A stretch of 29,215 nt of DNA, taken from positions 1 to 29,215 of IMG/VR virus record IMGVR_UViG_3300010885_026897; one strand, written 5' to 3'. Under the pieces are notes generated by a model that searched no databases, was not told where the DNA came from, and saw only the letters and a list, made by a program, of their open reading frames with translations. This document shows positions 1 to 19,322 of the stretch, in pieces. The stretch comes from a virus. Position 1 is the stretch's first letter. Each line of letters begins with the position of its first letter. A program made the position numbers and the translations under genes.

Positions 1-384
1 GCTGTATTGGCAAATGCAACTCTTGTACTGGCAGTATTGGTTATGTCAACTGCTTGTTGTACCAATGTACTTGTATTGAAACTTTGTGCATATGTGGCTG
101 TATTGGCAAATGCAACTCTTGTACTGGCAGTATTGGTTATGTCAACTGCTTGTTGTACCAATGTACTTGTATTGAAACTTTGTGCATATGTAGCTGTATC
201 GGCAAATGCAACTCTTGTACTGGCAGTATTGGTTATGTCAACTGCTTGTTGTACTAATGTACTTGTATTGAAACTTTGTGCATATGTAGCTGTATTGGCA
301 AATGCAACTCTTGTACTGGCAGTATTGGTTATGTCAACTGCTTGTTGTACCAATGTACTTGTATTGAAACTTTGTGCATATGTA
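1..384 (-). repeat. Four tandem 96-bp repeats inside the fibre gene
   Basis: The unit length is exactly 96 bp (32 codons), with copies starting at 1, 97, 193 and 289; further copies may lie left of the window. Copies 2 and 4 are identical. Copy 1 differs from them at one base (96, silent). Copy 3 differs at two bases: one silent, and one changing Asn to Asp in the FANTATY segment. A shortened relative of the unit (NTSTLVSLAVTATYAQS) sits just upstream in the protein, at about 370-425. Near-identity at DNA level points to recent duplication or to homogenisation by recombination. Confidence 0.95.
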
Positions 385-743
385 GCTGTAACTGCTAATG
401 ATACTAGTGTACTTGTGTTTAATGTAATAGAACCATTTGAAGATATGCTGATACTATTATTACCAATACGTACTCCTCCTAAAATTATAGAAGTTGCAGT
501 AACTAAAACATATCCAGGTTGTTGTGGGCCGGCAGGCCCCTGTCCACCAGTTGGACCAGCAGGGCCTTGATCGCCTTGATTACCTTGTGGTCCTTGTGGT
601 CCTTGAGATCCAGTATCACCTTTTAAGCCTGATGCTTTTAACGCATTCAATGTTAATTTTCTTGTTTGGCCGCCATCAAATATAATAAACACTCCAGTGT
701 TTGTTATAGTTGTTGCTACAGGTAATTGCGTAATTTTAGTCAT
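1..743 (-). CDS. Collagen-like tail fibre protein with 32-residue repeats (3' end outside window)
   Basis: Partial gene: 247 codons from an ATG at 743 to the left edge, still open. The start follows the stop of the giant structural gene by one base and has an AGAAGG ribosome site inside that gene's last codons. Residues 1-40 form a short head (MTKITQLPVA start). A collagen-like Gly-X-Y run follows (roughly residues 40-75, with GPQGPQGNQGDQG and GPAGPTGGQGPAG). After a short linker containing GGVRIGNNSISI comes a Thr/Ala/Ser-rich region made of a 32-residue unit (FANTATYAQSFNTSTLVQQ and onward) that repeats at least four times. Collagen-like stretches and short regular repeats are typical of trimeric phage fibre shafts, and the position after the baseplate genes fits a fibre or fibre-attachment protein. 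Receptor-binding parts would lie beyond the edge, so specificity cannot be judged. Confidence 0.82.
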   Translation of the reverse strand, partial: MTKITQLPVATTITNTGVFIIFDGGQTRKLTLNALKASGLKGDTGSQGPQGPQGNQGDQGPAGPTGGQGPAGPQQPGYVLVTATSIILGGVRIGNNSISISSNGSITLNTSTLVSLAVTATYAQSFNTSTLVQQAVDITNTASTRVAFANTATYAQSFNTSTLVQQAVDITNTASTRVAFADTATYAQSFNTSTLVQQAVDITNTASTRVAFANTATYAQSFNTSTLVQQAVDITNTASTRVAFANT

Positions 744-744
744 T

Positions 745-3700
745 TTACATTCCTTCTAATGGGTCATCTTCTTCTGTTGTTAATTTCTGATCCGTCTCTA
801 AGAAAATCAAGAAATCTTCAGGTTCATTAAATGTTGCTAAAGATTCATACGATTGCAACGATAATCCGGATGGTTCAGCTAATAAAAACTTAGCCTGAAT
901 ACTATCATTTAAAACTAGAGACTCACCATATCTTGTATACCAACTGCTAGATTTATCACTAATGACTAATAATTTAGCATTTTGTGATATTTTTGGTATA
1001 TCTTCTCTTAATGATAGGATATACGATGAAGTTGTTGCTGTTGTTAATATTGTATATTCTGGATCATATACATAGTCAGTATCTACATCTGAATCATAAC
1101 TTGCAATATTATTATGAACTATTGTTTCATTTTTATTTAAAAGTCTTCCGCCATAATATACACGTACTTGATTTTGTGTAGAAGTAGAATCATTAAATGT
1201 TAATCCGGATAATACGAATGTGGTATTTGTACTATAATTTGTAGTTGTAGACCAAGTTTGAGAAATTTCATTAAATGGTATAGTTTGGCTTCGACCTTGA
1301 TCAACTACAGCAGTTCCTGTAGGATATACCAATGCTCCTCCGGTTCCTAATGTGCTACGTTTAATATTCTTTAGAGTATTTCCGTCTTTTGTTAGATATT
1401 CAATACGTTCACCACTAACTAAAATTACTCCAGGATATTTTGGAGTTGGATTTTGTAATAGATCGGCATTAACTACTGAGATTTCTGTATCAGTGATTTT
1501 TAATTCTTGATTTAAGAAAGTGACTCGTTTTTCACTAAATCGTTTGTAATGTGTTCTACCTAACATATCTTTGAACATTCTATAACCAACAAATAATGAA
1601 GCAGTAATATCGCTAAAACTCATTATGGTTATAATATCTGAAGAATTAAATTCATAATCTTTATCAATTCTAATGGTATTACTATCCGCTAAAGTATAAT
1701 CAATTTTGTTAATTAACGGTTTTTTGTTTATAGATACCCATACATATGAAATATCCATAATAGGTCTACTCATTACATACAATCCCGAACTGTGAGCTTT
1801 ATATGTTTCTGTTCTTATAAAACTACTATCATGATTAGTATATGTTGTAATTTTTAATGTACTGCTAAGAGCTGGTGCTTTTGCAAGAACAAGTTTATCA
1901 TTTTTAACTTCGTATTCGTGGCCAATTAATGTTGTAATGGCCATTGCATCACCATTTTTAAGGAATCCTGAATTAAAAATCACAGTATTATTTGGTTGAT
2001 CTAAAACAAAATCTATACCGTTTCGTATACGTTTACCATTAACATGTATTTCTAATAAGCTAAGGGTAAATCTACCAAGTATATAAATTCCCTCAGGATC
2101 AATATTAAATACCGTTTGGTCGTTTGTTATAGAATAATAAATTGTGTCCGGAGGGACTAATCGTAAGCCGTCAACTTCAACAATTACCTGAGCATGATAA
2201 GGGCCAACAGTACCAGGAGGTTGTATTAAATTATAAGATTTAGTAACACCATCTCCAATAATTATTTGTTCTTTAACTTCACTATAGCCTTTGTATGCTC
2301 CTTTAAAAAACCAAGTTTGAACAATGTTTGATCCTGTAGACATATTATTAACAGTAATTCGACCTCTCTTATTTCTGTTACTAATTTTTGTTAATGTATA
2401 ATTTGGGCTTGTTATTGTTGATGTAGTAATAGCTATTCCATTAACTGTTACATAAACGCTCTTTATATCTTCAATCAATGCTGTAGAATCAATAACAACG
2501 GTCGATGTTCCGTATGTTTGAATAGATTTTGATCCAAGGAATTGATTACCGCCCACTCCTAATATTGTTATTCCAAGGGTTCCTAATTGTTGTTGTGCAG
2601 GAAATAAAAGCTGAGAATGAACAATATCTAATGTATAATCAGTTCCTTGACTTAACATCTTACCATTAAAATTAACCATGATTGATGCGGTATTGCCAGG
2701 CTGATAATTTAATGGAACAATAATAGTTGTTCCTGTATTTTCTATCGGATATTGCTGACTTACAATAATTGGAGATCCTTGTTGGGCACGAGTAAACACG
2801 TTGATACCTACACTTTCTTGTATTTGTCCAGGCACTACTTCTTCCGGAGCATAACTTGTGTCGGGTGTTACAAACTTATCCCCATCTAATATAATATCTG
2901 CGGCACCAAATCCTAATGCGTTGCTATAATTTAAATTTCCGCCATCTATTGATGTATCTACATCTGGATCTATTGTTATAAAATTATACGCACTGGCCAT
3001 AAATCCTGGCTTGATTTCATCTAAGGAAGGAGCATTAAAATAAATTATCGGACTTAATGCTGTTCCTGTTACTGCATAGGATACAATTTTTCCTGTAGTT
3101 CCTGTAGTAAGAACCGTAATTGTTAAATCATTTGTTCCTCTAATTCCACCTAATTGATTACCATATACTGTTAATCTAGTGCCTGCCTGTACTGTTGAGT
3201 TATATCCTGTTCCAGAATTTATCATAGTGGTAGAATATGCTCCGTTATTTCTAACAACTTCAAATATAGATCCAGAACCGGCTGTTGCGGTTCCGACAGT
3301 ATTAAAAGATATTACCTCACCGGAGGTGTTAACTGACGTAACTGAGATTACCAAATTATTATTTTTTGTACCGCCTAGTTGTGAACCTGGAATAGAAAAC
3401 ACAGTGTCTGTTGTGTAATTAGACCCGGTATTTAAAATATCAGTCAAATATGTACCTTCTGTTCTATTAATTCTAAATATAGCAGGCGAGCTTATTAAAG
3501 AAACCCCAGTACTAGTAAATGAGTTTACATTAAAATTTGTACCAGTACCTGTCACTCTAACTATTATATTGTTATCTCCGTCAACTCCGCCAAGAACATT
3601 ACCATGAATGGTCATAGTTGTAGAAAGTAGATAACCTGTTCCAGAATTAACAATAGCTACTGAGTAAAGACCGGCATTTCTAATAACATCAAATTCTGCA

Positions 3701-6700
3701 CCTGTACCAACCCTACTTGTAGCTGTAACAGCATAATATGTGGTTACTCCAATAACTGAAATATCATATGTTTGAGTTGTAATAGGAACAATATTAGTGT
3801 ATGTTGCTGTGGATAAATTTACCGAATCAACTAATACTGATCTAGGTAATGTATCACGAATTGTAATAGTCTGGCCTCTTAAAATTCCAGTCACAGATGC
3901 AACTGAAACAGATTCTGATCCTGTGCCAGCATAACTTGTCACTGTTGTGGCGTTATATGTTGTTACTACATTAGAATCCCATCCATTTTCAGAAAATCCT
4001 GTATCTATTGCATCCCAACCGGATGTATCTCTAAATGGAACAGTGTCAACCCGAACCCCTGGATATTCTGCTCCGTACATTAATTGGGCTAGATCTTTTC
4101 CTGGCATACCGTATCCAGGATTGTAAAAATCTTCAATTCGTTCCCCAGCAGTAAACAAATGCATATTTTTTGCATAGGTTACAGTTAGCACCTGTTCTTT
4201 TGTAGGAACAAAATTTAAAGAAATTTTACTTTTTAATTTATGGTATCCGCCATCTAATTCTTTGTATAAAATAATATTGTAATCAGTAAACAATACCAAT
4301 ATATCATCAAGTCGAACTTCGATATCTTTTTTATCTAATGTGCTTGCCCACGGAAGTTGATATATGTAACTTGATCCGTTAGTTGTTGTACTAAACGAAT
4401 AAGCAGTAGGACCTATTTTTCGTTTTGTACTAATTCTATCAAATTTTAATTTATTACTCAATGATCGAACTGTGTTGTAACTTTTAGAAATATCCGTTGA
4501 ATAAAATAAATTCTTTAAAATAGGATAAGCAATTGCGTGAGTAATTGTAGAATTACCTCCACCGGATATTATCACTGTAGGTTGCATGGTATAACCTGAT
4601 CCAGGATTAATAATTTCTATTTCGGTTATTTTTCCAAGGGCAATATAGGCCTTGGCTGTTGCTCCTGACCCGGTGTCTCCTTGAGCAGAAATAATTTCAA
4701 CGTTAGGAGGAGTACGATATCCCAATCCACCCGATGCTAATGTTACAGCTACTACACTATAAGTGTGGTTATCTAACCAACTTTTAAAAGGATACTGAGA
4801 AATTTGATTGCTAGTTTTATCTAACGTAATAAATCTTTTAATCGACCTATTATAAATTACAGGGAGGTCAAAATCAGTGCTAAATGTGTTTGTTGGTTCA
4901 AACGCATCGGTGCCTTTTCCAATTTCATAATTAACTTGATAATTTCTTATCTTTGTATGATAGGGTTTAATTTCTTTTAGATAATCTTCATACCAATTAG
5001 AATTTTGGAATTTATAAACCGTTCGTTGATCTAATATTCCTGCCATATTTTTAACATTGATAAACGATGTTTTAAAAGTCCAATCAAGAAACTTTTGCTC
5101 AGACATTGCATATTTTACAGCCTTAAAGAAAAATTTATTCCAATATATCCTTCTAGGGCCTGTAAAAATATCTTGTTTAATTGCAGTTAAAATATTCAAT
5201 AATTCAACTTCGGCAGTCTCATCAAATGAAATTTGATCAAATGTAGTTTCTTGGTCAAATCCTATTTGTCCAGCCGATGTATTCCATACGCTATCTAAAA
5301 ATTGTATTGTTCCGTTTTCACTATAAACAATATCATACTCTTTATTAAATGTTCCATTAGCAGTTGCTGATGTTTTCATTAATATAATATATCGGTTGTC
5401 TCCAGGATTGTTAACTTTAACATATTCCCCTTCTATTAAATCTAAAGTATCTAATCCGTATATTTCGTCAACAGTAGCCGATAACGGTTTAAACTTATTG
5501 TATGCGTCACTTTTCCAATCTAAATATTTCCAATATTTTGTAGTATCAAATTTTTGTATTTGTATACGTTCCCAACTAGGTGCTAACCAAACATATTTGC
5601 TCCATTTAGTTGGATAGTCTGGATCAATTTGTGTAATGACCACATACGGTCTAACTCGAAGAACAGGAGGACTTATAAATCCGTATCCAGGATTAATAAT
5701 TTCTACATTTATAATTCGACCGTCCTCGTCTATAATTGTTTTTAATTTTGCTCCGGACAAATCGTTTAATATAGTAACTGATGGCGGATTTACATATCCG
5801 TATCCTGTATTTTCAATATTGAAAGAAATAATTTTTCCATTTTCAATTTGGCAAGATAATTCAGCTGTTTTTAACTGTCTAGTAGATATAATATTAAGAG
5901 CTTCTATATCTTCAATAATTTGATCATATTCTCCATCTAATATATCTGGTATAGGATCTTTAAAATTTAAAATTGAAAAATCAACTACTCCTGTAATTAA
6001 AGTTTTTTGTAAAACAGAATTAGTATATTCAAATAAATTTCTCAATGCTTCACGCTTATTAACAAACATACTTTGTCTTGGGCGTATTTCAATTCCATAT
6101 TTTAATCTAGTAGGTAATTTGGGATCCGGAACTATATTACCAAGTTTATCTTTTCCTAATAAACTGTCAATTAACTTAGTTTCTAAGAATTCATTGGGTG
6201 TAGTATCTTCAGAATTTTCCTGTATTAATAACCACTCTGTATGTTTGTTAATATTAGTTAAAATATTATCATAAGAAATATTAAGATGTACTCTATCCCC
6301 AATCAAAGAAGATTTAAAATTTGTTAACATCAACGAATTTTTAGAAATAGGAGCCATGTATCTAAGACCGTATGATTTAGGATCTTCGATAATCTGAGCA
6401 ACTTCATATGCACTAATTCGTCTATCAGGTACATTAGGTGTTATTGTTTTAGATTTTACCCAGAAATAATAATATGTTGTAGACAAGTTAGTATTTCTAT
6501 CATATAAGATTTTTGAACTATATACAGTATCATTACTAAATTTTGGCTGGCCTGAAATTCCTAAAGTAAGCCCTTCGTTAGTATCAGCCATAGATGCCCA
6601 TTGGCTAGGAGTATAAATTGACTCTACCCATTCGTATACATCAATACTTGATCCAGGAAATATCTGTCCCCAGGTATTTTTTCTATATGACGGTTCACCT

Positions 6701-9700
6701 TGTTCATACCAAACATATTTTACTGTGCTGATATCCCACCACAACTCTCCTACTTGATTTGTAGTCCATTTAGAATCTATATTAATAGCAACATCAACAG
6801 TTCCTATAGAATATATAGCAGGGTCAAACCTTGTTTTATATCTAATTTCCTGATCAGCTAATCCAGGAATTCTACCCTTGACCGGATCATATAGGTCTAT
6901 ATAATCAACTACTGATTGGTCAAGTAAATTAACTGTGGTAATTTGATTAAATTTAGATATGTCAACAATATCGGTTTGTTCTCTATGAATATCCCATGTA
7001 TCAGAATTTCTATCAATTTCATTCCATATATAAATTGACCCGTAATCTATTCCGTTTCTAATAGATCCGGGAGATCCGACAAGTATTTCATTATTGGTAA
7101 CTGCTACATTTTGACCGTAATAACTACCTTCGTCAACTGAACTATCAAATAATTCTTGAGCTAATATAAATTTATGGTAGTGTCTATTGTAAACATAAAC
7201 AGTACCGGATTGATTTGTTATTTCACCAAATCCGCAAGCTGCCGAATCAAATGTTGTGTTACCTGCATCAAAGGTTATATTAGTATACAAATTGTCGCCA
7301 CGTGATGTAATTGCAAGAACTGTGCCAGTTGAATTTACACTAATAGAATGTCCAAAACTAATGCCAGGTTCTCTAGATGGATTATCTAATATTTGTACAA
7401 AATCAAAAATTGATGTTGTAGTATTCCACGCATATACTCCAACTTTTCCAAGTCTAGTTCTACCGTCATTGGCTGTTACAGAAGATATAAACAAATAGTC
7501 ACCAGTTTCACTCATAGTGATTTCAGCGCCTAATCTATCTCCATCTTTTAATTTTTTATCCCAATTAGTATCATTTCCTAGAATAGAATGTTTAAAAGTA
7601 TATACATCAGAATTTAGATCATATGTATAAACTGCAATTGCGCCTCTTTCAAATCTCCAACCAGGTGCACCAACAGCAACTATGCTTGCATCTTTATTTC
7701 CTGCAATCTTATATCCAAATTCAGAAGTTTTGGCCATTGTAATAGAAATACTACCAGATCCCAATGTTCCATGAGGAAAACTTACACTCGGAGTTGTTAA
7801 GTAACCTGATCCAGGATTATTAATTTCAATTTTTCTCAAATTGCCAGAAACTGCATATACTTGACCAGTTGCACGTACACCCCATGAAAGATCCGGAGCA
7901 CTGAATACGGCATCATCGCCTGTAATAAACCCGGAACTATTTCCAGGAGTTACAGAAATTTCTCCAACCCATTCACCTAGATTATCTACATTTAATGTTC
8001 CCTGTGATGAGGTAGTTACATCAAATGTTTGAATTGCCGATGTTCCCGACGAAACAAAAGAGGCAATGTTTCCGGTTGTGCCAATTGATGCTACACGAAT
8101 AATTAAATTATTTCTAGGAATAGCCCCACCAATTTGATTTCCATAAATTGTTACTATACTTTGTGTACTAGTAGCAGTAGTATAATTAGTTCCGGAAGAT
8201 ACCATAGTTACTGAATATTTTTCATTTTCTTTTGTAACTGTAAATGTTGCACCGCTTCCTACACCTTGAGTATTGTAACTAGTTAAGTTACTATAAGTTT
8301 TTGTACTACTTGTAATATTAATAGTATATCGATAAACTACACCACTATTTGAATCTTGACCGGGAGCCCCTACTAGTAGTTTTTTAGTTGCTGTGGATCT
8401 TTCTGCAAAAATACCAGCACCGTATTTTGCTTTACTTTGTGGCTCTGGGTTAACTAATACTATATGTGGAATTTCAGAGAACGGTCTAATTCTATCAAGG
8501 GTTGATATTTTAACCAATCCCATTTCAATATAAGAAGCTTCTGGGTAAATTCCTTTTGCTACCCTAAAACTGTTTGTAGAAGGACTCATTCTAACATAGC
8601 TGGCATTAGGAGCTGTAGCATATATAAGATCGTCTGTTTCATCATATAGAGAGGTAACTCCATACGGAGCAATATCATATACAGATCTATATTCGTTTAA
8701 ATATTCATTTAATGTACAATTAACTAACGGAACAAGACTATTATCTTTTTTAGTGTAAACATATATTTTTCCGTAACCAATAGTTACATCTTTATAATCC
8801 GGGGCTGAAATAAGAACAGTGTCGTTACCTTCTTGTTTTGAAATGTAATAACCATAATCTTGTCCGGCATTATCACGTGGACTTGAATATTCAGTTAATG
8901 CAAAATTTAATTGTTTTTTATAAACTGCCCACTGATCTGTTATTGTTTTATCTATCCAGAAAATTTCTCCGGGCTGGATATCTGCCAAATATCTATAAGA
9001 AGCAAGATCATCAAATGTTTTATATCTTGCACTAATAAATTTAAATACAACTCCTATAGTAATAGAAGAAGGTATTGTAGTAATGTCTGATTCAACTTCA
9101 AAAGAATTAGGAGAAATAACTGAAGTAACTCTATAAATTTTATTCAATGCAATATCAAGACGTGTTACAGATATAATATCTCCTTCAAATACTTCGTGAT
9201 ATCTATTTGTAATAAATTTAACAGTATTTGGAACAGAACCAAAGTCAACCCCTGTTATATTAACAAGTTGTCTAGTATATCTATATACATTCCAGTCGTC
9301 GTCAGAGGTAAATCCTATCCAGAATTTTTCTCCTTCTTTAATAGATTGATTATCCCCAATAGATAATAGTGCCGATAAATCTTTAATTACATAGTCAACA
9401 TCGTCGGCCCTAGCATATCCAGCAGTAGATAAAACCATTCCTGGATCATCAAATGTGCTAGGAATTACTTTAAAGAACGATTCAGGATCATAATTAGACG
9501 GCGTAATTGTTAAATCTAAAGGTGTTATATAAGATATTAAACTATTTGGAGCATCTGGCAATGTTTTGACAAATTCAACAACTTGATTATTTTCAACAAA
9601 TTCATTTTCTTTTAACGGCAATTCTAATTGTTTAAAACTGCTATAAGAACCAAAGGATCCAATTCTAAATGCCCATTCTTCATTAACTTCTAATTTTCCT

Positions 9701-12700
9701 TGAAGATTTTGTAAGCTGGCTTTTTCTAATTTAGAAAGAGCGTTTATTGTTCCTTTTTCTTTTATAAATCCTTGATAGAATTTATATTGACTAATGGCAT
9801 TAGGAAAAATATTATATAGGTATGGTCTAGGAGTATATCCAATTAAATGTTGAGACATTTTTTGTTGTCCCAAATCAAAGTTATCAATATCTAAACTATA
9901 AAAATCTTCAAATTGATTAATTTTATAATCAAAATTAGGAAGCAGTTGAGGTTCTGGACGATTATTTAAAAGTGTCCAATTTGAGAAAATAAATTCGTCA
10001 GTGCCGATAATTTTAAAATTTGCAGAATAATATTTTTCTAAATATCTTACAATATCCCCTGCTCGATAATCTATATATTTTTGCCAATCAGTTACAGTAG
10101 CATTATCATATATAAATCCTGGACTTATAAAATCTCCGTGCCAATCTGCTGTTCTAAATCCTTTTAATTTAATTCGACGTTGTCTATATCCAGATTCAAT
10201 ATCATAAATTATATCACTAAAAATTGTAGTGTTATTAAAAATAAGAGCATGTTCTTTTTGTACCAGATAAAACTTTGCAAAGAAAAATCCTTCTACTGTG
10301 TTATTTGTTATTAAAGTAAATACTCCATTTACTCTAGATAATGAAAAATTATTAATAGAGAATGATTTACCATCGGCTCTTAATAAATTATATCCATAGA
10401 AGTTTTTTAATATATCATCAACAACACAATCAGCATATGATAGTTGTATCGAGTCAGCAAATGGACTTAATGTTATTACGCTGTTATCGGCCCAATTTTG
10501 TGTAGACCAATACAAGAATTCTTTTCCAGTAAAATCCCAATTTATAATTTCTTTAAAGTCTTCATTGTACTGATTGAAAATAAATCCCTGAGATTCTAGC
10601 CAATTTCCATATCCTAAAAAGAAATCATAAACTTCTTGAAGTGTGGACATTGGTGTTTCGTAAGGAACTATTGTTTCTTTATCTTCAAATTTAGTAGATT
10701 TAATTACCGACAATCCGCCAAAACTAGGTAAAGAAGACAATAGCTGATAATATTTGTTATTGAATTCTTCTAAAGAATTATGCGTTGTAATAACTCTATA
10801 ATAGTTACTTTCGTAAAAAACTACCTGACCTCTTTGATAATAGTTTGATGGCCTCCAACTTACATAGTCTTCTGTTTTATTGTTAATGCTAAGTGTATTA
10901 TCAGTGACCTGTCTGATTATTTTATTAATTTTAAAAAATAAATTTTGTTTGTCATATCCTCTGATAATAAATTGGCCATTTAATTTTTCTATTATAATAC
11001 CTGATATAGAAAGAATTTTAACAGGATTACTAGTATTAAAATGGACTGAATAATCTTCAGGTGGCAGGAACGGATTGGGATTATATGACCCCACTTGTGT
11101 TGAATCAATGATTATTGATAATTTATCTTTGCTTACAAATCCGCCAACTTTTGATATCAAATTAAAAGTTCCGTTAGATAATTCAGATTTTAAAATATCA
11201 ACATAATTAGAGTTAGTTTGTTTATTAGTTTCGATCAAATAGACGCTATAACCAGATGCTCGAACTGTATTATTAAGATCAGAATGTAGTAATAGATTTG
11301 AAGGACTTAAAAATATATGGTCATCACCATAGGTATATTGTCCTGCTATATTTTTTTGCATTCTGCTAGTATCAAAAAGTGTTGAAGCATATGTACTAGG
11401 ATCACATACGGCTAAAATTATTTGTACAGCAAACGGCCAATTACTACTTCTACGCCAAGTATTTTCTGCTGGACCTATATCTCCAAACATCCAATTTTGA
11501 TCGGTGTCAAATATTGCATCATTTTGACCAATACTTGCCCAATTCCTGGGATCAACTATATTTCCGCTATCATCAACCGGAATAATATTAGATAACCCAG
11601 GACGAGCATATAGTGAATTTATTCCAGGAGTATCTCCGCCTGCAATTCGCCCAAGCTCTAAATCTTCCCATAACAATAAATTTCCAGAGGTATAGGGAGC
11701 AGGACCGTATTTGTCATCCCACCAAGCCGGTTTAATAGTCATCCCTAACATTTCCCAAGGATGTGTGTTAGGCCTGTCTGTGTTAAAATAATATTTGTAA
11801 ATTGCTCTCCAGCTGCCTGGCATAGTTTTACCAAATATATAATCTATGGCAGATTTGTAATTATAAGTTTTATGGTTATCAATATTATAAAATCTATTTG
11901 TTTCATAATTTACACCGTAAAATCCTACCCATTTTAAAAATAATCCCTGAACTATATTATAAACTTCAGTATACGAATAAGCTTCATCTCTAAATACATT
12001 AGGAAGAATTTTATTAATATCTAGCAACTCGGGATTGTATGTAGTTTTTATATTGTTAAAAATTCTTTTTTCGTATTCAATTAATATTAAATCTCTATAA
12101 TCATTAAAAGCCACAGTAATACTACCATCATGCCCTTGTATTACGTTTTTGGCTTCATTTGCAAATGAATTATCAAGATATATCATCGGTTCAAACTTAG
12201 GATATAATCCTAATTTTGTCGGAGTAGGTGTAATATAGCAACCGTCGGTGTCATTATATTCATAAATTTCTATAATATCATCTTTTGTTAATTCTTTTAT
12301 AAATGTAATAGAACTTTCATACTTGCTAAATTGATAATCTATATCAATAAGTAATTGTTCGCTGTTTAGATAAACAATAACTGCTTTATTTGAAATAGCT
12401 GTTGGATTATGTATTTCCGAGATAGAGTAATCAACATTTCTACGATCTGTTACTACATATGTTCTTATTTTCTTATTTGTTCCATACGGAACCATATCAG
12501 TTATTAGATACGGGAATGTAATATTTTTATTTTCATTGATTTTAGTTAGTGCAATATCTAACGCATCAATTGGAGATAGATCTCCTTCTAAATTTGTTAT
12601 TACTTTAATTAAATTTAGTTTGAATTGATTATATTGTTCTCCTGCAATTTCTATTGCACGGATTAAACTATTAGATTGATTTGTAATAAAATAATGTGCA

Positions 12701-15114
12701 AACGAAATTGGATTTTTATTACTAATTAATCGAGTTCCCCACTTTGCGGTTAACGGCAACTCACTAAGATTATTTGGACCAGATATAGTACCAACAAACT
12801 CTGGATCCCTGTTAATCATTGTTTCCACATGGTCAGTTAATTCACTAAGTGTAAATTGCCCAACAGGTCCGTTAAGAGGATTGTTTGTTAATCCTATAGG
12901 GGTTTCATATGTTCCATTATTGTTTGCGGGAAAAGAAGATACAACTTTAAATAATACTCTATCATTAATATTCAATATATCTGCAAAAATTACAAATAAA
13001 GATGTTCCGCTAATCTCTAAAGAAAAGTTTTTTATTTTCTTATCGTTAACAAAAATATCTATTGTTAAATTATTATTATAAGCATTAATTGGATTATCAA
13101 TACAATTAACTTCTATGTTGTTAGTTGTTTCTTTTATAACTTGAAATTGTAAAATGGGAATGTTATACTCAACAGCATCAGTCCAAACATTAAAATAGGT
13201 AGGGTTATTAGGATCTTGATTAGATTTTATATATGTAATAGACGAACTAATTGTTTTATTTTGGTCAGGATAAACAAACGATATAGATCCTGTAGAAAAA
13301 TAATTTGAAAATAGGTACGAACTTTCAGTGCCTATACTTAGGTATTTTAAAGGAAATCCTAAAATTAAATCGTTTGGTCCACTACCGATACTATATCCAA
13401 AAATCTTATTTCCAGAAAAAGAACTAGTATATAACTCGCCGCCATAACTATTTCCTTCATTATCGAATAGGTCATATAGGGGTGCTTGATTTTTAGAAAG
13501 TTTTTGTTGCCCAGATGTCCATACTGCTTTATAAAACCACCAAGTACTTCCTTTAAATGCAGTACCCCGTGTGATAACAACATTAGCACCTTCAAATGGA
13601 ATATTATCTTCAGTTTCTACTAAATTTATAACTCGTTCAACTGTAGGAATTCTAGAAGGACCACGTACTTTTTCTATTTCTACAAATGTAACTTCATATA
13701 TTCTACCCTTAACCAATGGATCAGTGTCAGCATTAAAAATTACCCTAAATCCTTCTTCTAGTACTATTCCGTCTACAACATATCCTGTTGATTTTTCAAC
13801 ATTTGAAAATACATCAGTAGTGGAATTATCTAAAAGATCTACATTCTTAATACCAGTATGCCCATGATTCCATAGTTGCATATCTGGTTTAAATTCTATA
13901 ATAGGGCGTTTAGCTCGAGAGTCGATCGGTAGAATAAACTCTTCATTATTATATTTTGCTGTGATTTCAAGTACATCACTATGAAACCATCTATTAAATC
14001 TAGACCAAGCATTTAAATCTTTGCTGGATCTGTTGATAACAATATATTCTGGTTGTATTGGAATATTTTTAAAATTATCAAATGGAAAGTTATCAAAATT
14101 TTCAGCATCAAAATTTACATCATATTCTGTTGCTATACTTTCTGGTGTTTCTAATAAACTAAACTCGACTAATTTTATTTTATCTCCAACTCCTTCAACA
14201 ATAAATTCTTTATCGTTATAAAATGAATTTAATATTTTTCCGCCAAATCTAATTTTTAATCCGTTTATTAAATCAATACCGTTACCTGATCTAAATTTTC
14301 TTTTACCAATTATTTCTTTCTCAACATCAATTGCACTATTTTCTTGTATTGTTTTAATAACAATTTGACCACCAATAATACTTTCATTATTAGAATTATA
14401 ATATAGTACGTCAGGTGTTTCATTATCAACGGAGAAAATAATTTGTCCAGCTTTTGTTCCGTTACCTAAAACATTTTTATCAAAAACATTATCTAATCCC
14501 GTAGCAGGAGTAGTCTTTAAATAAAATTTATAAGAACTATTAACGTTAAAGACATACGTAACACCTCTAAATAAAGTTAATTGAGGATCAGGTGTTAATC
14601 CATCCGGCGTAAACAAAAAGAAATTTTTATCTTCAGTATTTGTAACTGAATAAGTGCTAACTGTTTCTCTCTGAGGCCCTGTTATTAGAACAGTTCCTGG
14701 GCCAGTTGGCAACCAATAATATTGTCTAAAATTAACTAGTTTGTCCCACTCAACTTTTGGATCATAACTATAAAAATCACTTCTAAATACTCTATCTAAA
14801 TTATTAACATAACCGTTATGAAAAGAAATTTGGTTTATTAAATCATCATAGCCGTATATTTTAGAAATTTCTCTAGACAACGTTTTAATTACTAATCCTG
14901 GTTCTAATTGGTAATCATTTCGCAGTTTCTGTGATTGAGAAAGATAATTGTCAGTCTCTGGATTATAATTTTTACTTAATTTGCTTCCAATAAATCCGTC
15001 AATCCTATCTAATTTAGGAGTTTGAATTAATTGGTCAATAGTACCAGATAAAAATTTCTGATTTTTGTCTGTTCTATAATAAGCAGGTAATAGGTTAATT
15101 GAATTGCGATCCAT
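745..15114 (-). CDS. Giant multidomain virion structural protein, baseplate/tail associated (4789 residues)
   Basis: One uninterrupted frame. The ATG at 15114 lies 4 bases after the gp6-like stop, with an AGGGAG ribosome site 8 bases upstream. I recognise the N-terminus (LLPAYYRTDKNQKFL, then IDGFIGSKL) as the kind that opens the large structural protein next to gp6 in marine T4-like phages. Visible parts: cupredoxin-like domain about 155-255; Trp/Tyr-rich conserved blocks about 360-620 and 1030-1170 (HPWEMLGMTIKPAWWDDKYG near 1120); seven FG-GAP-like propeller blades about 2095-2705; Gly-Tyr beta motifs (NPGSGY) at about 2433, 3100, 3140, 3460 and 3500; a conserved block at about 3160-3400 ending EIKPYHTKIRNY; three tandem 73-residue repeats at about 3792-4020; a string of beta modules with V-NGK...DY at about 4140-4480. 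T4 has gp7, gp8, gp10 and gp11 after gp6, so this may take over wedge or peripheral baseplate roles (inference). No catalytic motif seen. Confidence 0.9.
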   Translation of the reverse strand: MDRNSINLLPAYYRTDKNQKFLSGTIDQLIQTPKLDRIDGFIGSKLSKNYNPETDNYLSQSQKLRNDYQLEPGLVIKTLSREISKIYGYDDLINQISFHNGYVNNLDRVFRSDFYSYDPKVEWDKLVNFRQYYWLPTGPGTVLITGPQRETVSTYSVTNTEDKNFFLFTPDGLTPDPQLTLFRGVTYVFNVNSSYKFYLKTTPATGLDNVFDKNVLGNGTKAGQIIFSVDNETPDVLYYNSNNESIIGGQIVIKTIQENSAIDVEKEIIGKRKFRSGNGIDLINGLKIRFGGKILNSFYNDKEFIVEGVGDKIKLVEFSLLETPESIATEYDVNFDAENFDNFPFDNFKNIPIQPEYIVINRSSKDLNAWSRFNRWFHSDVLEITAKYNNEEFILPIDSRAKRPIIEFKPDMQLWNHGHTGIKNVDLLDNSTTDVFSNVEKSTGYVVDGIVLEEGFRVIFNADTDPLVKGRIYEVTFVEIEKVRGPSRIPTVERVINLVETEDNIPFEGANVVITRGTAFKGSTWWFYKAVWTSGQQKLSKNQAPLYDLFDNEGNSYGGELYTSSFSGNKIFGYSIGSGPNDLILGFPLKYLSIGTESSYLFSNYFSTGSISFVYPDQNKTISSSITYIKSNQDPNNPTYFNVWTDAVEYNIPILQFQVIKETTNNIEVNCIDNPINAYNNNLTIDIFVNDKKIKNFSLEISGTSLFVIFADILNINDRVLFKVVSSFPANNNGTYETPIGLTNNPLNGPVGQFTLSELTDHVETMINRDPEFVGTISGPNNLSELPLTAKWGTRLISNKNPISFAHYFITNQSNSLIRAIEIAGEQYNQFKLNLIKVITNLEGDLSPIDALDIALTKINENKNITFPYLITDMVPYGTNKKIRTYVVTDRRNVDYSISEIHNPTAISNKAVIVYLNSEQLLIDIDYQFSKYESSITFIKELTKDDIIEIYEYNDTDGCYITPTPTKLGLYPKFEPMIYLDNSFANEAKNVIQGHDGSITVAFNDYRDLILIEYEKRIFNNIKTTYNPELLDINKILPNVFRDEAYSYTEVYNIVQGLFLKWVGFYGVNYETNRFYNIDNHKTYNYKSAIDYIFGKTMPGSWRAIYKYYFNTDRPNTHPWEMLGMTIKPAWWDDKYGPAPYTSGNLLLWEDLELGRIAGGDTPGINSLYARPGLSNIIPVDDSGNIVDPRNWASIGQNDAIFDTDQNWMFGDIGPAENTWRRSSNWPFAVQIILAVCDPSTYASTLFDTSRMQKNIAGQYTYGDDHIFLSPSNLLLHSDLNNTVRASGYSVYLIETNKQTNSNYVDILKSELSNGTFNLISKVGGFVSKDKLSIIIDSTQVGSYNPNPFLPPEDYSVHFNTSNPVKILSISGIIIEKLNGQFIIRGYDKQNLFFKINKIIRQVTDNTLSINNKTEDYVSWRPSNYYQRGQVVFYESNYYRVITTHNSLEEFNNKYYQLLSSLPSFGGLSVIKSTKFEDKETIVPYETPMSTLQEVYDFFLGYGNWLESQGFIFNQYNEDFKEIINWDFTGKEFLYWSTQNWADNSVITLSPFADSIQLSYADCVVDDILKNFYGYNLLRADGKSFSINNFSLSRVNGVFTLITNNTVEGFFFAKFYLVQKEHALIFNNTTIFSDIIYDIESGYRQRRIKLKGFRTADWHGDFISPGFIYDNATVTDWQKYIDYRAGDIVRYLEKYYSANFKIIGTDEFIFSNWTLLNNRPEPQLLPNFDYKINQFEDFYSLDIDNFDLGQQKMSQHLIGYTPRPYLYNIFPNAISQYKFYQGFIKEKGTINALSKLEKASLQNLQGKLEVNEEWAFRIGSFGSYSSFKQLELPLKENEFVENNQVVEFVKTLPDAPNSLISYITPLDLTITPSNYDPESFFKVIPSTFDDPGMVLSTAGYARADDVDYVIKDLSALLSIGDNQSIKEGEKFWIGFTSDDDWNVYRYTRQLVNITGVDFGSVPNTVKFITNRYHEVFEGDIISVTRLDIALNKIYRVTSVISPNSFEVESDITTIPSSITIGVVFKFISARYKTFDDLASYRYLADIQPGEIFWIDKTITDQWAVYKKQLNFALTEYSSPRDNAGQDYGYYISKQEGNDTVLISAPDYKDVTIGYGKIYVYTKKDNSLVPLVNCTLNEYLNEYRSVYDIAPYGVTSLYDETDDLIYATAPNASYVRMSPSTNSFRVAKGIYPEASYIEMGLVKISTLDRIRPFSEIPHIVLVNPEPQSKAKYGAGIFAERSTATKKLLVGAPGQDSNSGVVYRYTINITSSTKTYSNLTSYNTQGVGSGATFTVTKENEKYSVTMVSSGTNYTTATSTQSIVTIYGNQIGGAIPRNNLIIRVASIGTTGNIASFVSSGTSAIQTFDVTTSSQGTLNVDNLGEWVGEISVTPGNSSGFITGDDAVFSAPDLSWGVRATGQVYAVSGNLRKIEINNPGSGYLTTPSVSFPHGTLGSGSISITMAKTSEFGYKIAGNKDASIVAVGAPGWRFERGAIAVYTYDLNSDVYTFKHSILGNDTNWDKKLKDGDRLGAEITMSETGDYLFISSVTANDGRTRLGKVGVYAWNTTTSIFDFVQILDNPSREPGISFGHSISVNSTGTVLAITSRGDNLYTNITFDAGNTTFDSAACGFGEITNQSGTVYVYNRHYHKFILAQELFDSSVDEGSYYGQNVAVTNNEILVGSPGSIRNGIDYGSIYIWNEIDRNSDTWDIHREQTDIVDISKFNQITTVNLLDQSVVDYIDLYDPVKGRIPGLADQEIRYKTRFDPAIYSIGTVDVAINIDSKWTTNQVGELWWDISTVKYVWYEQGEPSYRKNTWGQIFPGSSIDVYEWVESIYTPSQWASMADTNEGLTLGISGQPKFSNDTVYSSKILYDRNTNLSTTYYYFWVKSKTITPNVPDRRISAYEVAQIIEDPKSYGLRYMAPISKNSLMLTNFKSSLIGDRVHLNISYDNILTNINKHTEWLLIQENSEDTTPNEFLETKLIDSLLGKDKLGNIVPDPKLPTRLKYGIEIRPRQSMFVNKREALRNLFEYTNSVLQKTLITGVVDFSILNFKDPIPDILDGEYDQIIEDIEALNIISTRQLKTAELSCQIENGKIISFNIENTGYGYVNPPSVTILNDLSGAKLKTIIDEDGRIINVEIINPGYGFISPPVLRVRPYVVITQIDPDYPTKWSKYVWLAPSWERIQIQKFDTTKYWKYLDWKSDAYNKFKPLSATVDEIYGLDTLDLIEGEYVKVNNPGDNRYIILMKTSATANGTFNKEYDIVYSENGTIQFLDSVWNTSAGQIGFDQETTFDQISFDETAEVELLNILTAIKQDIFTGPRRIYWNKFFFKAVKYAMSEQKFLDWTFKTSFINVKNMAGILDQRTVYKFQNSNWYEDYLKEIKPYHTKIRNYQVNYEIGKGTDAFEPTNTFSTDFDLPVIYNRSIKRFITLDKTSNQISQYPFKSWLDNHTYSVVAVTLASGGLGYRTPPNVEIISAQGDTGSGATAKAYIALGKITEIEIINPGSGYTMQPTVIISGGGNSTITHAIAYPILKNLFYSTDISKSYNTVRSLSNKLKFDRISTKRKIGPTAYSFSTTTNGSSYIYQLPWASTLDKKDIEVRLDDILVLFTDYNIILYKELDGGYHKLKSKISLNFVPTKEQVLTVTYAKNMHLFTAGERIEDFYNPGYGMPGKDLAQLMYGAEYPGVRVDTVPFRDTSGWDAIDTGFSENGWDSNVVTTYNATTVTSYAGTGSESVSVASVTGILRGQTITIRDTLPRSVLVDSVNLSTATYTNIVPITTQTYDISVIGVTTYYAVTATSRVGTGAEFDVIRNAGLYSVAIVNSGTGYLLSTTMTIHGNVLGGVDGDNNIIVRVTGTGTNFNVNSFTSTGVSLISSPAIFRINRTEGTYLTDILNTGSNYTTDTVFSIPGSQLGGTKNNNLVISVTSVNTSGEVISFNTVGTATAGSGSIFEVVRNNGAYSTTMINSGTGYNSTVQAGTRLTVYGNQLGGIRGTNDLTITVLTTGTTGKIVSYAVTGTALSPIIYFNAPSLDEIKPGFMASAYNFITIDPDVDTSIDGGNLNYSNALGFGAADIILDGDKFVTPDTSYAPEEVVPGQIQESVGINVFTRAQQGSPIIVSQQYPIENTGTTIIVPLNYQPGNTASIMVNFNGKMLSQGTDYTLDIVHSQLLFPAQQQLGTLGITILGVGGNQFLGSKSIQTYGTSTVVIDSTALIEDIKSVYVTVNGIAITTSTITSPNYTLTKISNRNKRGRITVNNMSTGSNIVQTWFFKGAYKGYSEVKEQIIIGDGVTKSYNLIQPPGTVGPYHAQVIVEVDGLRLVPPDTIYYSITNDQTVFNIDPEGIYILGRFTLSLLEIHVNGKRIRNGIDFVLDQPNNTVIFNSGFLKNGDAMAITTLIGHEYEVKNDKLVLAKAPALSSTLKITTYTNHDSSFIRTETYKAHSSGLYVMSRPIMDISYVWVSINKKPLINKIDYTLADSNTIRIDKDYEFNSSDIITIMSFSDITASLFVGYRMFKDMLGRTHYKRFSEKRVTFLNQELKITDTEISVVNADLLQNPTPKYPGVILVSGERIEYLTKDGNTLKNIKRSTLGTGGALVYPTGTAVVDQGRSQTIPFNEISQTWSTTTNYSTNTTFVLSGLTFNDSTSTQNQVRVYYGGRLLNKNETIVHNNIASYDSDVDTDYVYDPEYTILTTATTSSYILSLREDIPKISQNAKLLVISDKSSSWYTRYGESLVLNDSIQAKFLLAEPSGLSLQSYESLATFNEPEDFLIFLETDQKLTTEEDDPLEGM
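3055..3741 (-). repeat. Three tandem ~73-residue beta repeats in the giant protein (fourth copy at about 8041-8310)
   Basis: The protein repeat has the pattern Y-S-V/T-x-I/M-V/I-N-S-G-T-G-Y, then a hydrophobic strand, G-N/S-x-L-G-G, N-N/D-L/I-x-I-x-V and S-F/Y-x-x-x-G-T. GNVLGG, GSQLGG and GNQLGG sit at about 3597, 3379 and 3155, a spacing near 73-75 codons. A fourth member with GNQIGG lies about 1500 residues away, inside the propeller region. The DNA copies have diverged clearly, so this is an old protein repeat and not a recent duplication. Confidence 0.8.
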
Positions 15115-15118
15115 CTAA

Positions 15119-18100
15119 TTAACTCCCTGCCATGATTGATGTAGTAGCTTTTAACTCGGATGCAGTTAGAGCTGAGATAATTTCAATATCATCAACAGTT
15201 GCGCCATTAATAAAAATTTCATTACTTTGCGATGTTATTTCATATAGTGTGCCAAAACTCTTATTAATTTTAGGAACAATGACAAAATTAGTAATGTCCG
15301 GTGTTAATTTATTCATAACATATGTACTAAGCTCACTAAAATTAAATGTTTGACCAAATTCCCAATTCTCTACTGAGAAAAATTCATTAATAGATAAAAG
15401 GATCCTAGTTTTGAGATCGTTATCGCTAGTAGTCCTAGATGAATTTCTAACTGCTTTAAATGTTGCCTGTAACTCAGTTACTGCAACATTTCCAAATAAC
15501 ACTTTATATTTTGTAGGTTGAAATATTATTTCATCACTAATACTTTTAATAGGTGATAGTCCCGGCATAAAACTTTCTTCTAGTAATTGACTTGTTGGAG
15601 GTAATGGCTCTTCACCAGTTCTTGTAGATAACCATTTTCTAAATTCAGTATCGTAAGATTTTGTTAAGATATAAATTTCAATAATATTTGTTTTGCTTGG
15701 ATCTATTCGGCGTTCTTGTCCACTATTATGTAAGTAATGAAACTTAATATTTTTTCTGCCATATCTAGCAATGTAATCAGGTTCTAATACAAAATCTTGT
15801 TCAGCCGTTGACCAACTTTTAATTACATCGATGTTTTTATTATAAAAATAAAATAATTGACCGTTGGTAGGAATAATATTAACTTCAAGAGGAGAAGGAT
15901 ATGCAGAAATAAGATTGTCTGGTGCTAACGAATATTCTTGTCCGTCAGATGTTAATTTAAAATATAAAAATTTATCATTATATCCTGTTTGGTCACTTAG
16001 TGCATCTGGAGATGCTACTATAGTAAATGAGTCTGGGTCATCAATTTGACCGTCATCATCTGCATCAAAAAAACTAACTTTAACTTTTTTAGGATTAATA
16101 TATCCATCTGTTTCTATAATCGCACTATCAATTTGCCACTGAATATCTTTTCCTAATGTAATAAATTGATCAACAGATGATTCATAAAATTTGTATTCTT
16201 TATCAACTAATGCTGGAATATTTGACAATACAAAAGTAACAATACTATTTGTAGTAATTGTAGAAAACACTCCCGGAGTTATTGTAATTGAATTGCTATT
16301 AGTTGAAATGTTAGTTACTAATCCTACTCCATTTACAATAGAAGGATGTACGGCCATAGAATTATTTCTTACAATACCGCTCAAAGATGATAAAACTAAT
16401 GTAGTCCCAGTTGATACTTGAGTTTTTAATGTTTTTGTTAGCATTGCATTTGCCACTGTTGCTGTTGATGTAGCAACTAGTACTGTGGGATGAGCTTCTA
16501 CAACAGGGTTAACTGAAAGAACATCTATTCTATCTTTAATTAATAAATTATTAACAAAATCAAAATTCTTTTTATTTTTATCTACAAAAAACGATGTTTG
16601 TTCTTCACTTTCAAATATATATTCTAAAACTCTATATCTAACTTTATAATTTCGGCCAGTCCATTCAAAGGCAACTAACCAACTATTATCTTTACCAATA
16701 TTAGTTACATCCTTTTGATACGACAAACTAAAAGAATTTTTAAGATCAAGATTACTATCAGTTATAATATACCAAGATCTAGTTAAAGAATCAAATGCAA
16801 TACCTAAGTTTCTTTTACTTAAACAAATATTAGTAATTTCTGATTCTAAACCCTTACTAATAACATTAGCAAATCTAGGAATTACCTCAACAGGTACAGC
16901 TCGAGATGGTAAGTTTCCTGTTATAGTGATAGGGCCTTGGCCATCTTCTAATAGTCCTAATCCAGTATTAGATCCATCGCCTACAATTTTAACAACTTTA
17001 GTCCATTTGTAGGTCCGTGTAGTTGCATCCAACTGAGTTGTTAGTGTACCGTTTGGTAAGAAATAATATCCGTCCGGCGGTGTAAATTTTATTAATGCTC
17101 CCGGACTAAGATACTTTAATGTATTTCCAGAAAACTCTCCCACACTTGATGGGCCTGAAAAATTTGAAAAATAACCTTTAGATTCGTTTGGAAGTTTTTG
17201 TGCCTGTGTCCATTTGAAATATTCTGACAATGTTTCAATCCGAGGATATTTGGAAAAATAAAAGTTCCGCATATCTTCAGAATCAATAATACTACCAAGT
17301 TGATTTCGTATGGTTCCTAAAATATCATTAGCGTTAATAAAATTAAATTCAAAGTTATATTCTTTTTCTTGTCTGTACAATAATCCATCATCAGCAAAAA
17401 TATTTGTACTACTATATTTTCCACTAGCATCAGATAGATCATAAAATTTACTAATGCCGCTTGAGATTCTATTTAAACTTTTAATTTTTAAAATGTCACT
17501 GCTAACTGCTAACGGTGCAATATTATAGTCCTCAGCAGTCACCATTCTATTTTGAACATAGAAATTCTGTGGAGCATTTTGTTTAATACTATCATTAGTT
17601 TCAGTGGTCAAAGAATTGCTTGATGTTACTTGTAAACTTACAGTCAATGATAATGTATGTGTTTGTCCTTGTTTATTTTTGTAAGGAATGTTAATGCCAA
17701 TATTTGACAATTGCTCTGGTTTAATAATATAACTTAATCCGTTACTTTGTCTATAGTATAATTTAAACTGCCCTTTAGGAAAATCTCCAAAGCTGCCGTC
17801 GGCAAAACTTAAATCAATTTGATCGTTTTCTCTAGTTAAAACAGAATAAATTTTTCTAATTTTATTGTTTAAACTATTATATATAATATTATTTCCAACA
17901 AGATCAGACACTTTTGTCCAAAGTGAGTCGTGTTTTCCGGCGGTATTAAGTTGCCATAACCAAACGTCAGTATCATTTATATCGGGTGCATTAATGCCGA
18001 TTAACATATTTGCAGATGGGTTATCAATGTTAAATGTTGTGGCTGCAATTGAGCCTTGTCTAAAATGTACAAAAAATCCAGTATTACTTGAACTGTTACC

Positions 18101-18832
18101 TTGATTATCGTTTTTATATAAAAAACTAAATTGATTTTCTGGAAGAGGAGCCTCTTCATATATAACGCCAGATGAATCAAATGCAGACGATACAATTTCA
18201 AAATTCATAGAAATGCCGCCAACGTTTCCAGTAAATCCATATATCGGCACATCTGTATTATTACTTGCAATTCTATATTGTTGAGTTTCTACTCCGCTAA
18301 TTATAGATTTATTATAAGGTTTGCCAAACACAAACTCTCCGGGCATTGAACTGCTTAAAATATTTAAAAATTGCTGATACCAGTTATTATTAGTAGGATC
18401 ATTCCACGAAACTGTACCGTTTGCAAGATTTATTCCATTATCGTCAAACACATTATCTGTAGTAGATACTGAAAGAATTTTTAAAAAGCCTCTCGATGGA
18501 ACTGTACGTTTAGAATTATAATTGATCAATCGAGCTAATCGTAATACACTTTCTCTTCGTTCTGCTGTTTCTAAAAAGTTTTCACGGGCATTTAAATCAA
18601 TACGGAAACTTAGATTTTGCCCAAGATATGCTATAAGATCAATTAACGCAATATATTCACTACTATCAATAAAATCGTTGAAATCTTCAGGATAATTTTC
18701 CTGAAGATAAGCAATCATTGTACGACGAAGTGTTTCAAAATCATAACTTTTAAAGTCAGCATTACGAAAACTTTGATATAGTTTCTTCCAATCTTCTGCG
18801 ACTAATAATTTGTTTGTTGTGGATGGGATCAT
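15119..18832 (-). CDS. 6: Baseplate wedge protein gp6-like (baseplate J family), enlarged
   Basis: 1237 residues; T4 gp6 is about 660. In T4, gp6 dimers form the ring that joins the six wedges around the hub. The N-terminus (residues 1-120, with FNDFIDSSEYIALIDLIAYLGQ and RRESVLRLARLINY) and the C-terminus (about 1064-1237, with the segment around LLSINEFFSVENWEFGQ and SNEIFINGATVDDIEII) match the gp6 pattern well. A baseplate-J-like middle is visible at about 334-435 (LSFADGSFGDFPKG, NRMVTAEDYNIAP). Between about 490 and 1060 there is additional beta-rich sequence with no T4 counterpart I recognise. The ATG at 18832 lacks a clear ribosome site but lies 24 bases below a TAAATA box. The gene stops 4 bases before the giant structural gene. 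Confidence 0.9.
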   Translation of the reverse strand: MIPSTTNKLLVAEDWKKLYQSFRNADFKSYDFETLRRTMIAYLQENYPEDFNDFIDSSEYIALIDLIAYLGQNLSFRIDLNARENFLETAERRESVLRLARLINYNSKRTVPSRGFLKILSVSTTDNVFDDNGINLANGTVSWNDPTNNNWYQQFLNILSSSMPGEFVFGKPYNKSIISGVETQQYRIASNNTDVPIYGFTGNVGGISMNFEIVSSAFDSSGVIYEEAPLPENQFSFLYKNDNQGNSSSNTGFFVHFRQGSIAATTFNIDNPSANMLIGINAPDINDTDVWLWQLNTAGKHDSLWTKVSDLVGNNIIYNSLNNKIRKIYSVLTRENDQIDLSFADGSFGDFPKGQFKLYYRQSNGLSYIIKPEQLSNIGINIPYKNKQGQTHTLSLTVSLQVTSSNSLTTETNDSIKQNAPQNFYVQNRMVTAEDYNIAPLAVSSDILKIKSLNRISSGISKFYDLSDASGKYSSTNIFADDGLLYRQEKEYNFEFNFINANDILGTIRNQLGSIIDSEDMRNFYFSKYPRIETLSEYFKWTQAQKLPNESKGYFSNFSGPSSVGEFSGNTLKYLSPGALIKFTPPDGYYFLPNGTLTTQLDATTRTYKWTKVVKIVGDGSNTGLGLLEDGQGPITITGNLPSRAVPVEVIPRFANVISKGLESEITNICLSKRNLGIAFDSLTRSWYIITDSNLDLKNSFSLSYQKDVTNIGKDNSWLVAFEWTGRNYKVRYRVLEYIFESEEQTSFFVDKNKKNFDFVNNLLIKDRIDVLSVNPVVEAHPTVLVATSTATVANAMLTKTLKTQVSTGTTLVLSSLSGIVRNNSMAVHPSIVNGVGLVTNISTNSNSITITPGVFSTITTNSIVTFVLSNIPALVDKEYKFYESSVDQFITLGKDIQWQIDSAIIETDGYINPKKVKVSFFDADDDGQIDDPDSFTIVASPDALSDQTGYNDKFLYFKLTSDGQEYSLAPDNLISAYPSPLEVNIIPTNGQLFYFYNKNIDVIKSWSTAEQDFVLEPDYIARYGRKNIKFHYLHNSGQERRIDPSKTNIIEIYILTKSYDTEFRKWLSTRTGEEPLPPTSQLLEESFMPGLSPIKSISDEIIFQPTKYKVLFGNVAVTELQATFKAVRNSSRTTSDNDLKTRILLSINEFFSVENWEFGQTFNFSELSTYVMNKLTPDITNFVIVPKINKSFGTLYEITSQSNEIFINGATVDDIEIISALTASELKATTSIMAGS

Positions 18833-18884: not shown

Positions 18885-19322
18885 TTATACCGAGGCGATC
18901 CCCACGGCTTTATCAAACGATATTTTTATATTGCCAGATTGATCTGTTCCTACATATTCTAAGGTGATCTCTAGTAACATTCCATATTCTTGTTCAATAA
19001 TATTAATTAAGGTAGCATTAACTCTTGGATCTTTTGATATAATTTTAACAACATCTTGTCCGATCTGTGATTTTGTTTCATCTGTGAAAGGTTCATAGAG
19101 TAAATCCCAAATTGAAGTTCCGAACGAAGGATTCATTACCCTTTCGTTTTTTCTAACAGAAAAATTATTAATTATATCTTGTTTAATCAACTCAAAGTCG
19201 TAGATCTTTGAAGTGTTTAATGTGTTACTAACAGTACTAAAACCTTTATAAAACTGACTACGTTTTATAGTATGTTCTTGTTTATATTTTGTTGGATTAA
19301 TTTCTAAATTCTTGTAAGCCAT
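18885..19322 (-). CDS. 25: Baseplate wedge subunit gp25-like
   Basis: 145 residues, close to T4 gp25 (132). Gp25 sits at the inner wedge next to gp6 and gp53 and nucleates sheath assembly. The core signature is clear at about residues 55-80: N-F-S-V-R-K-N-E-R-V-M-N-P-S-F-G-T-S-I-W-D-L-L-Y-E-P-F (the gp25/GPW ER...P.FG motif), followed by the helix that usually leads to a 'DPRV' segment (here KDPRVN, near 98) and a C-terminal beta part. The gene begins 8 bases after the gp5-like stop and is followed by a 52-base gap before gp6. Confidence 0.9.
   Translation of the reverse strand: MAYKNLEINPTKYKQEHTIKRSQFYKGFSTVSNTLNTSKIYDFELIKQDIINNFSVRKNERVMNPSFGTSIWDLLYEPFTDETKSQIGQDVVKIISKDPRVNATLINIIEQEYGMLLEITLEYVGTDQSGNIKISFDKAVGIASV

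Follow-up and report, generated by a model that had tools for sequence, protein, structure and literature searches.

A predicted seven-bladed integrin-type (FG-GAP) propeller within the giant baseplate protein of an uncultured jumbo-phage lineage

The window, here the whole stretch of 29,215 nucleotides analysed, encodes a giant protein in which residues ~2069-2710 are predicted, with very high confidence from profile matching and structural modelling, to adopt the closed seven-bladed propeller fold of integrin alpha chains (FG-GAP). The explanation favoured as a whole, to which we give a probability of about 60%, is that this closed propeller was gained or lost once, occupies a fixed site in a protein at the T4 gp7 position, and would make contact with the host. 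A relative of the integrin alpha head, verifiable from sequence, is placed within a core protein of the baseplate in an abundant, uncultured lineage of jumbo phages, which extends the viral FG-GAP domains to contractile phages.

The giant protein and its gene neighbourhood

The genes and segments referred to below are as follows (window coordinates, all on the minus strand).

3..743, minus: tail-fibre-like protein, truncated at the contig end (phrog_366, 2e-12)
745..15114, minus: giant virion structural (baseplate) protein, 4789 aa (phrog_10938 family)
15119..18832, minus: gp6-like baseplate wedge protein (phrog_10646, 1.4e-276; phrog_219)
18885..19322, minus: gp25-like baseplate wedge protein (phrog_261, phrog_43)
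19331..21310, minus: baseplate hub/tail lysozyme-like protein (phrog_13211, 3e-47)
9565..10017, minus: conserved core segment upstream of the propeller, residues 1700-1850 (mean identity 0.72 over 1701-1800)
6145..6984, minus: conserved core segment downstream of the propeller, residues 2711-2990 (conservation among relatives)
3058..3720, minus: repeats of the C-terminal arm, residues ~3799-4019, related to the propeller insert (sequence similarity)

In the window, the giant open reading frame comes directly after the gp6-like, gp25-like and hub/lysozyme genes. The order gp25-gp6-giant ORF recurs in the jumbo phages Atu_ph07, Phosso, PA5oct, GAP32, PBECO4 and Vibrio 2.275, and in the window and its relatives it matches the order gp25-gp6-gp7 of T4. 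No gp7 chain was found among the matches of the profile searches against the PDB, and the giant protein is therefore assigned to the gp7 gene position by synteny alone. The annotation of the PA5oct homologue records its detection by ESI-MS/MS; together with the synteny with gp25- and gp6-like genes, this supports the label of baseplate protein that the sequence-only reading had given to the giant protein. A weak match to a CBM5/12-like module was observed in the core of the protein (window 10768-10857, residues ~1420-1449, E 0.13), and the family profile over this region matched chitinase A1 at 0.021; judged on these matches, the core may also hold a carbohydrate-binding-like module.

Seven FG-GAP units and their predicted fold

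The propeller and its parts were delimited as follows.

6985..8910, minus: seven-bladed FG-GAP propeller, predicted, residues ~2069-2710 (integrin profile match, AF2, Z 34-37)
8884..8904, minus: N-terminal strand, residues 2071-2077 (DSSP E36-42), expected to close blade 7
8680..8862, minus: blade 1 (FG 2087, SAP 2103; motifs, blade models, AF2)
8440..8670, minus: blade 2 (FG 2151, TAP 2167; motifs, blade models, AF2)
8281..8439, minus: blade 3 (FG 2231, GAP 2249; motifs, blade models, AF2)
7732..8280, minus: insert between blades 3 and 4, ~180 aa, residues ~2279-2461, non-propeller
7570..7731, minus: blade 4 (FG 2466, GAP 2482; motifs, blade models, AF2)
7375..7539, minus: blade 5 (LG 2528, ISS; motifs, blade models, AF2)
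7150..7365, minus: blade 6 (FG 2587, ITS, GTVYVY 2637; motifs, blade models, AF2)
6985..7149, minus: blade 7 (YG 2666, GSP 2680; FG-GAP_2 Pfam match, AF2)

The blade motifs quoted in the sequence-only reading were all found, in the same order and 0-2 residues from the positions given there. Its interval of 7000-8832 had to be widened to 6985-8910, since it leaves out the closing strand at the N-terminal side and the last part of blade 7. Residues 2279-2461 within the interval are mostly insert rather than propeller. The pattern FG-(10-17)-GAP matched six times in the whole protein, in every case within residues 2087-2685, while 5000 shuffles of the matched segment gave a mean of 0.19 matches and a maximum not above 4. 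In the seventh unit, blade 5 (LGAEITMSETGDYLFISSV), the strict motif is lost in the window and relatives retain FG...FVSAP; alignment showed that the seven FG starts are conserved across 83 sequences. Blade models, which were constructed without the window sequence and then run on the window domain, related the units to one another; the blade-1 model, for instance, matched window blade 4 with an E-value of 1e-8, and reached ~1e-4 on blades 5 and 7.

The Pfam family FG-GAP_2 scored above its cut-off with the window domain alone (24.1 bits against 23) and was present in 72 of the 83 family members (best 1.2e-14), and PF01839 had no match in the window. Searched against the PDB, the 83-sequence profile retrieved integrin alpha-4 at E=1.1e-18, with integrin alpha chains topping the list (about 50 beyond integrin alpha-4). 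A single propeller segment found no match in phage records by tblastn, nor in the PDB by phmmer, and the integrin relation was thus detected only by the deep profile. Using the 83-sequence alignment, AF2 returned a model with a pLDDT of 84.6 and a pTM of 0.82, in which most blade blocks exceeded 90 and the strand pattern fits seven blades. The model aligned with integrin alpha heads at Z 34-37 and an rmsd of 2.8-3.2 Å over 362-384 residues, the alignment covering model residues 34-675. Profile and model, the two checks that the sequence-only reading had proposed, agree in bearing out its claim of a seven-bladed FG-GAP propeller of integrin type.

Blade 7 of integrins is completed by the strand at the N-terminus. 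In the model, strand 2071-2077 would fit the place of this closing strand, and closure of the ring by it is suggested by the seven FG starts and by the pairing of integrin residue 1 with model residue 34. An eighth blade formed by the N-terminal strands 2051-2067 was considered and rejected, as the same pairing leaves these strands outside the matched ring. That the repeats arose by chance, or form an open, non-propeller beta-repeat solenoid, has a negligible probability: blades 2 and 6 do diverge from the others and AF2 given two sequences only reached an uninformative pLDDT of 38, but the observed FG-GAP count was never reached in shuffles and the confident model matches across the whole integrin ring, so that this alternative is refuted at the level of prediction.

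Inserts in the propeller

The insert at residues ~2279-2461 follows the third strand of blade 3 and precedes the FG of blade 4. For most of its length it is occupied in about 10% of the aligned relatives; its pLDDT is ~80 at first and then ~50. Its first half resembles repeats 3799-3874 (E 2e-12) and 3926-4019 (4e-9) of the same protein and, by this similarity, is a copy of the repeat of the C-terminal arm. The arm repeats themselves measure ~65-95 residues each and have no Pfam match. The insert may itself contain the fourth strand of blade 3, at about residues 2365-2374. Parts of the insert are common to few relatives only (e.g. L001, L009, L011, L015); at the same site some other relatives carry unrelated inserts and most carry none. 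Further inserts were found among relatives in blades 1, 2, 4, 5, 6 and 7, one of which, in L109, is a CBM5/12 module scoring above cut-off within the blade-2 hairpin. The idea that inserts are confined to positions after the GAP was dropped on account of this carbohydrate-binding module.

Distribution and divergence among relatives

Scans with the propeller pattern retrieved one relative, and the conserved downstream core retrieved hundreds. Two scans of IMG/VR with this core segment gave 272 and 261 matches, of which 80 each were kept, on contigs that in some cases exceeded 320 kb; the 180 relatives tested include near-duplicates, and the first set comprised 83 sequences at 90% redundancy. 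The propeller was present in all 124 segments with both flanks (123 relatives and the window; weakest E 2.7e-84) and in 57 of 57 more divergent relatives from the scan begun with PA5oct, that is, in 180 of 180 environmental relatives plus the window (181 sequences). Its site is constant, with a conserved core segment on either side.

The propeller was absent from the homologues in seven isolates (Atu_ph07, Phosso, PA5oct, SCTP-2, Vibrio 2.275, PBECO4 and GAP32) and, by the propeller profile, from a marine branch of three sequences (L156-L158). PA5oct, GAP32, PBECO4 and Atu_ph07 share with the window the homologous core on both sides of the site and the gene order after gp25/gp6. Propeller-less phages of the phrog_10938 family have about 200-1530 other residues at the site, and the large inserts there in Atu_ph07 and Phosso matched no propeller family. 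The marine branch has ~633 residues at this place that the propeller profile did not recognise. Among the bacterial genome contigs searched there was a single match, a marine MAG contig belonging to this propeller-less branch and binned in a Gammaproteobacteria MAG (MED685). In a midpoint-rooted tree of the flanking core, from which SCTP-2 dropped out, one branch, with supports of 82 and 100 on the two sides of the root, separated 43 propeller-bearing tips from 8 others. The simplest reading of this tree is a single gain or a single loss of the propeller in the protein family.

Among ten full-length relatives, the mean identity was 0.25-0.38 over residues 1901-2700, compared with 0.72 for residues 1701-1800 and 0.52-0.57 for residues 2701-3000; on these alignments, the propeller is evolving faster than its flanks. 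Variation as high as that of the propeller was seen in regions 3701-4000 and 4101-4400 of the giant protein, and W2053, W2062 and the YQF.KID exit are conserved beside the core.

Comparison with integrins

The phage domain shares with the integrin alpha-chain propeller (PF01839/PF14312) the seven FG-GAP blades arranged in a ring, the N-terminal start, the homology detected by profile, the structural match at Z 34-37, and the ability to carry an inserted domain between blades. In alpha-I integrins the inserted domain lies between blades 2 and 3, whereas the insert of the phage protein, unrelated in sequence, separates blades 3 and 4. The calcium-type loops DxDxDG, found in several integrin blades but not required of FG-GAP_2-type repeats, are nearly absent (9 matches in about 580 FG-GAP hairpins of the 83 sequences, none in the window), which makes an integrin-like metal-dependent mechanism unlikely. 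The FG-to-GAP hairpins of the phage domain are short (median 15-20 residues), and it has no known thigh domain or beta subunit. Compared with the integrin receptor, a membrane-anchored alpha/beta heterodimer with thigh and calf, the phage virion protein has only the head in common.

Proposed function of the propeller

The propeller would sit on the baseplate as a rigid disc facing the solvent. At an early stage of adsorption, its inserted domains and fast-evolving loops could make contact with the host envelope, probably with the glycans there; this contact might help to hold the baseplate on the cell ahead of sheath contraction. We consider such a role in host contact, which the sequence-only reading had also raised as a possibility, somewhat better than an even chance. 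Rapid divergence and domain insertions suggest an exposed, interacting surface, the sugar-binding CBM5/12 insert points to envelope glycans, and the presence of FG-GAP proteins as separate genes in Atu_ph07 and Phosso was counted on the same side. Counted against it were the equal variability of regions 3701-4000 and 4101-4400, the fact that related phages without the propeller still infect, and the separate tail-fibre-like gene of the window phage; against the explanation as a whole stands also the missing sequence match to T4 gp7.

Unbroken retention of the propeller in the lineage would be expected of an obligatory structural part at least as much as of a receptor-binding head that can be exchanged. 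The propeller may be a spacer of an enlarged baseplate, or a platform for wedge-to-wedge or fibre docking, that makes no host contact and whose drift reflects relaxed constraint on loops. Its occurrence without exception in the 181 environmental sequences, the change of state on a single tree branch, the location fixed between conserved core segments, and the conserved residues adjoining the core all speak for this less probable but serious competitor. Divergence above that of the flanks and repeated unrelated inserts, one of them a carbohydrate-binding module, suggest exposed surfaces instead, and in related phages FG-GAP proteins are encoded by genes of their own, apart from the giant protein. 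Enzymatic activity, for example glycan degradation or a lyase activity as in many beta-propellers, seems very improbable; phiKZ gp131C has been proposed to bind a receptor or degrade the cell surface (PMC4901313), but the nearest matches here are integrin adhesion heads rather than enzymes, and the profile has few near-invariant polar residues. Host contact might also extend to ligand sensing as in an integrin head, with the exposed face and inserted domains reading the host surface and relaying binding to the gp6 wedge by way of the flanking core. This is a speculative and rather unlikely proposal; if true, receptor sensing and the contraction trigger would be united in one polypeptide. The propeller is also a variable site, tolerant of insertions, that lends itself to tests of host recognition.

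Relation to other viral propellers

FG-GAP propellers and propellers of phage baseplates are both already known. The FG-GAP domain of the prasinovirus MntV1, described in 2024, was suggested by its authors to be maybe the first confirmed in viruses (PMC11467894). Our literature search found no paper joining phage, FG-GAP and baseplate, and an FG-GAP domain built into a giant baseplate protein and fixed throughout a lineage appears to be undescribed. PhiKZ gp131C (PDB 4GBF) is a seven-bladed propeller at the periphery of a jumbo-phage baseplate with suspected receptor binding, and the receptor-binding protein Gp45 of phi11 uses a five-bladed propeller to recognise the host and has a cavity into which GlcNAc could fit (PMC4901313). 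Both are precedents for phage adhesion propellers. The phiKZ domain has the same blade number and a similar setting but is a peripheral, separate protein, whereas the window propeller is a central domain of the giant protein at the gp7 position; gp131C had no sequence match to the propeller profile at E<=1, and 4GBF was not among the 50 structural matches listed. Gp45 differs in its five blades and homotrimeric state, and no sequence match to the window propeller was found.

Structure matches indicated that FG-GAP-type propellers are widespread in large eukaryotic viruses and present in a few phages. By sequence or predicted structure, MntV1, mimivirus-like viruses, Atu_ph07, Phosso and S-TIM5 have them too, as separate proteins rather than as a domain fixed within a baseplate protein. 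Two adjacent giant proteins of Phosso (PV764938.1:48338-57826 and 57900-68978), annotated as hypothetical and each exceeding 3000 aa, contain dozens of FG-GAP_2 repeats, implying, from the repeat counts, several tandem propellers. In Atu_ph07, a gene annotated as 'Hemagglutinin protein' (MF403008.1:243018-244199) encodes a stand-alone FG-GAP protein and adjoins mazG. Phosso has two smaller FG-GAP genes at 92124-94532, and the arrangement of an FG-GAP gene next to mazG is common to both phages.
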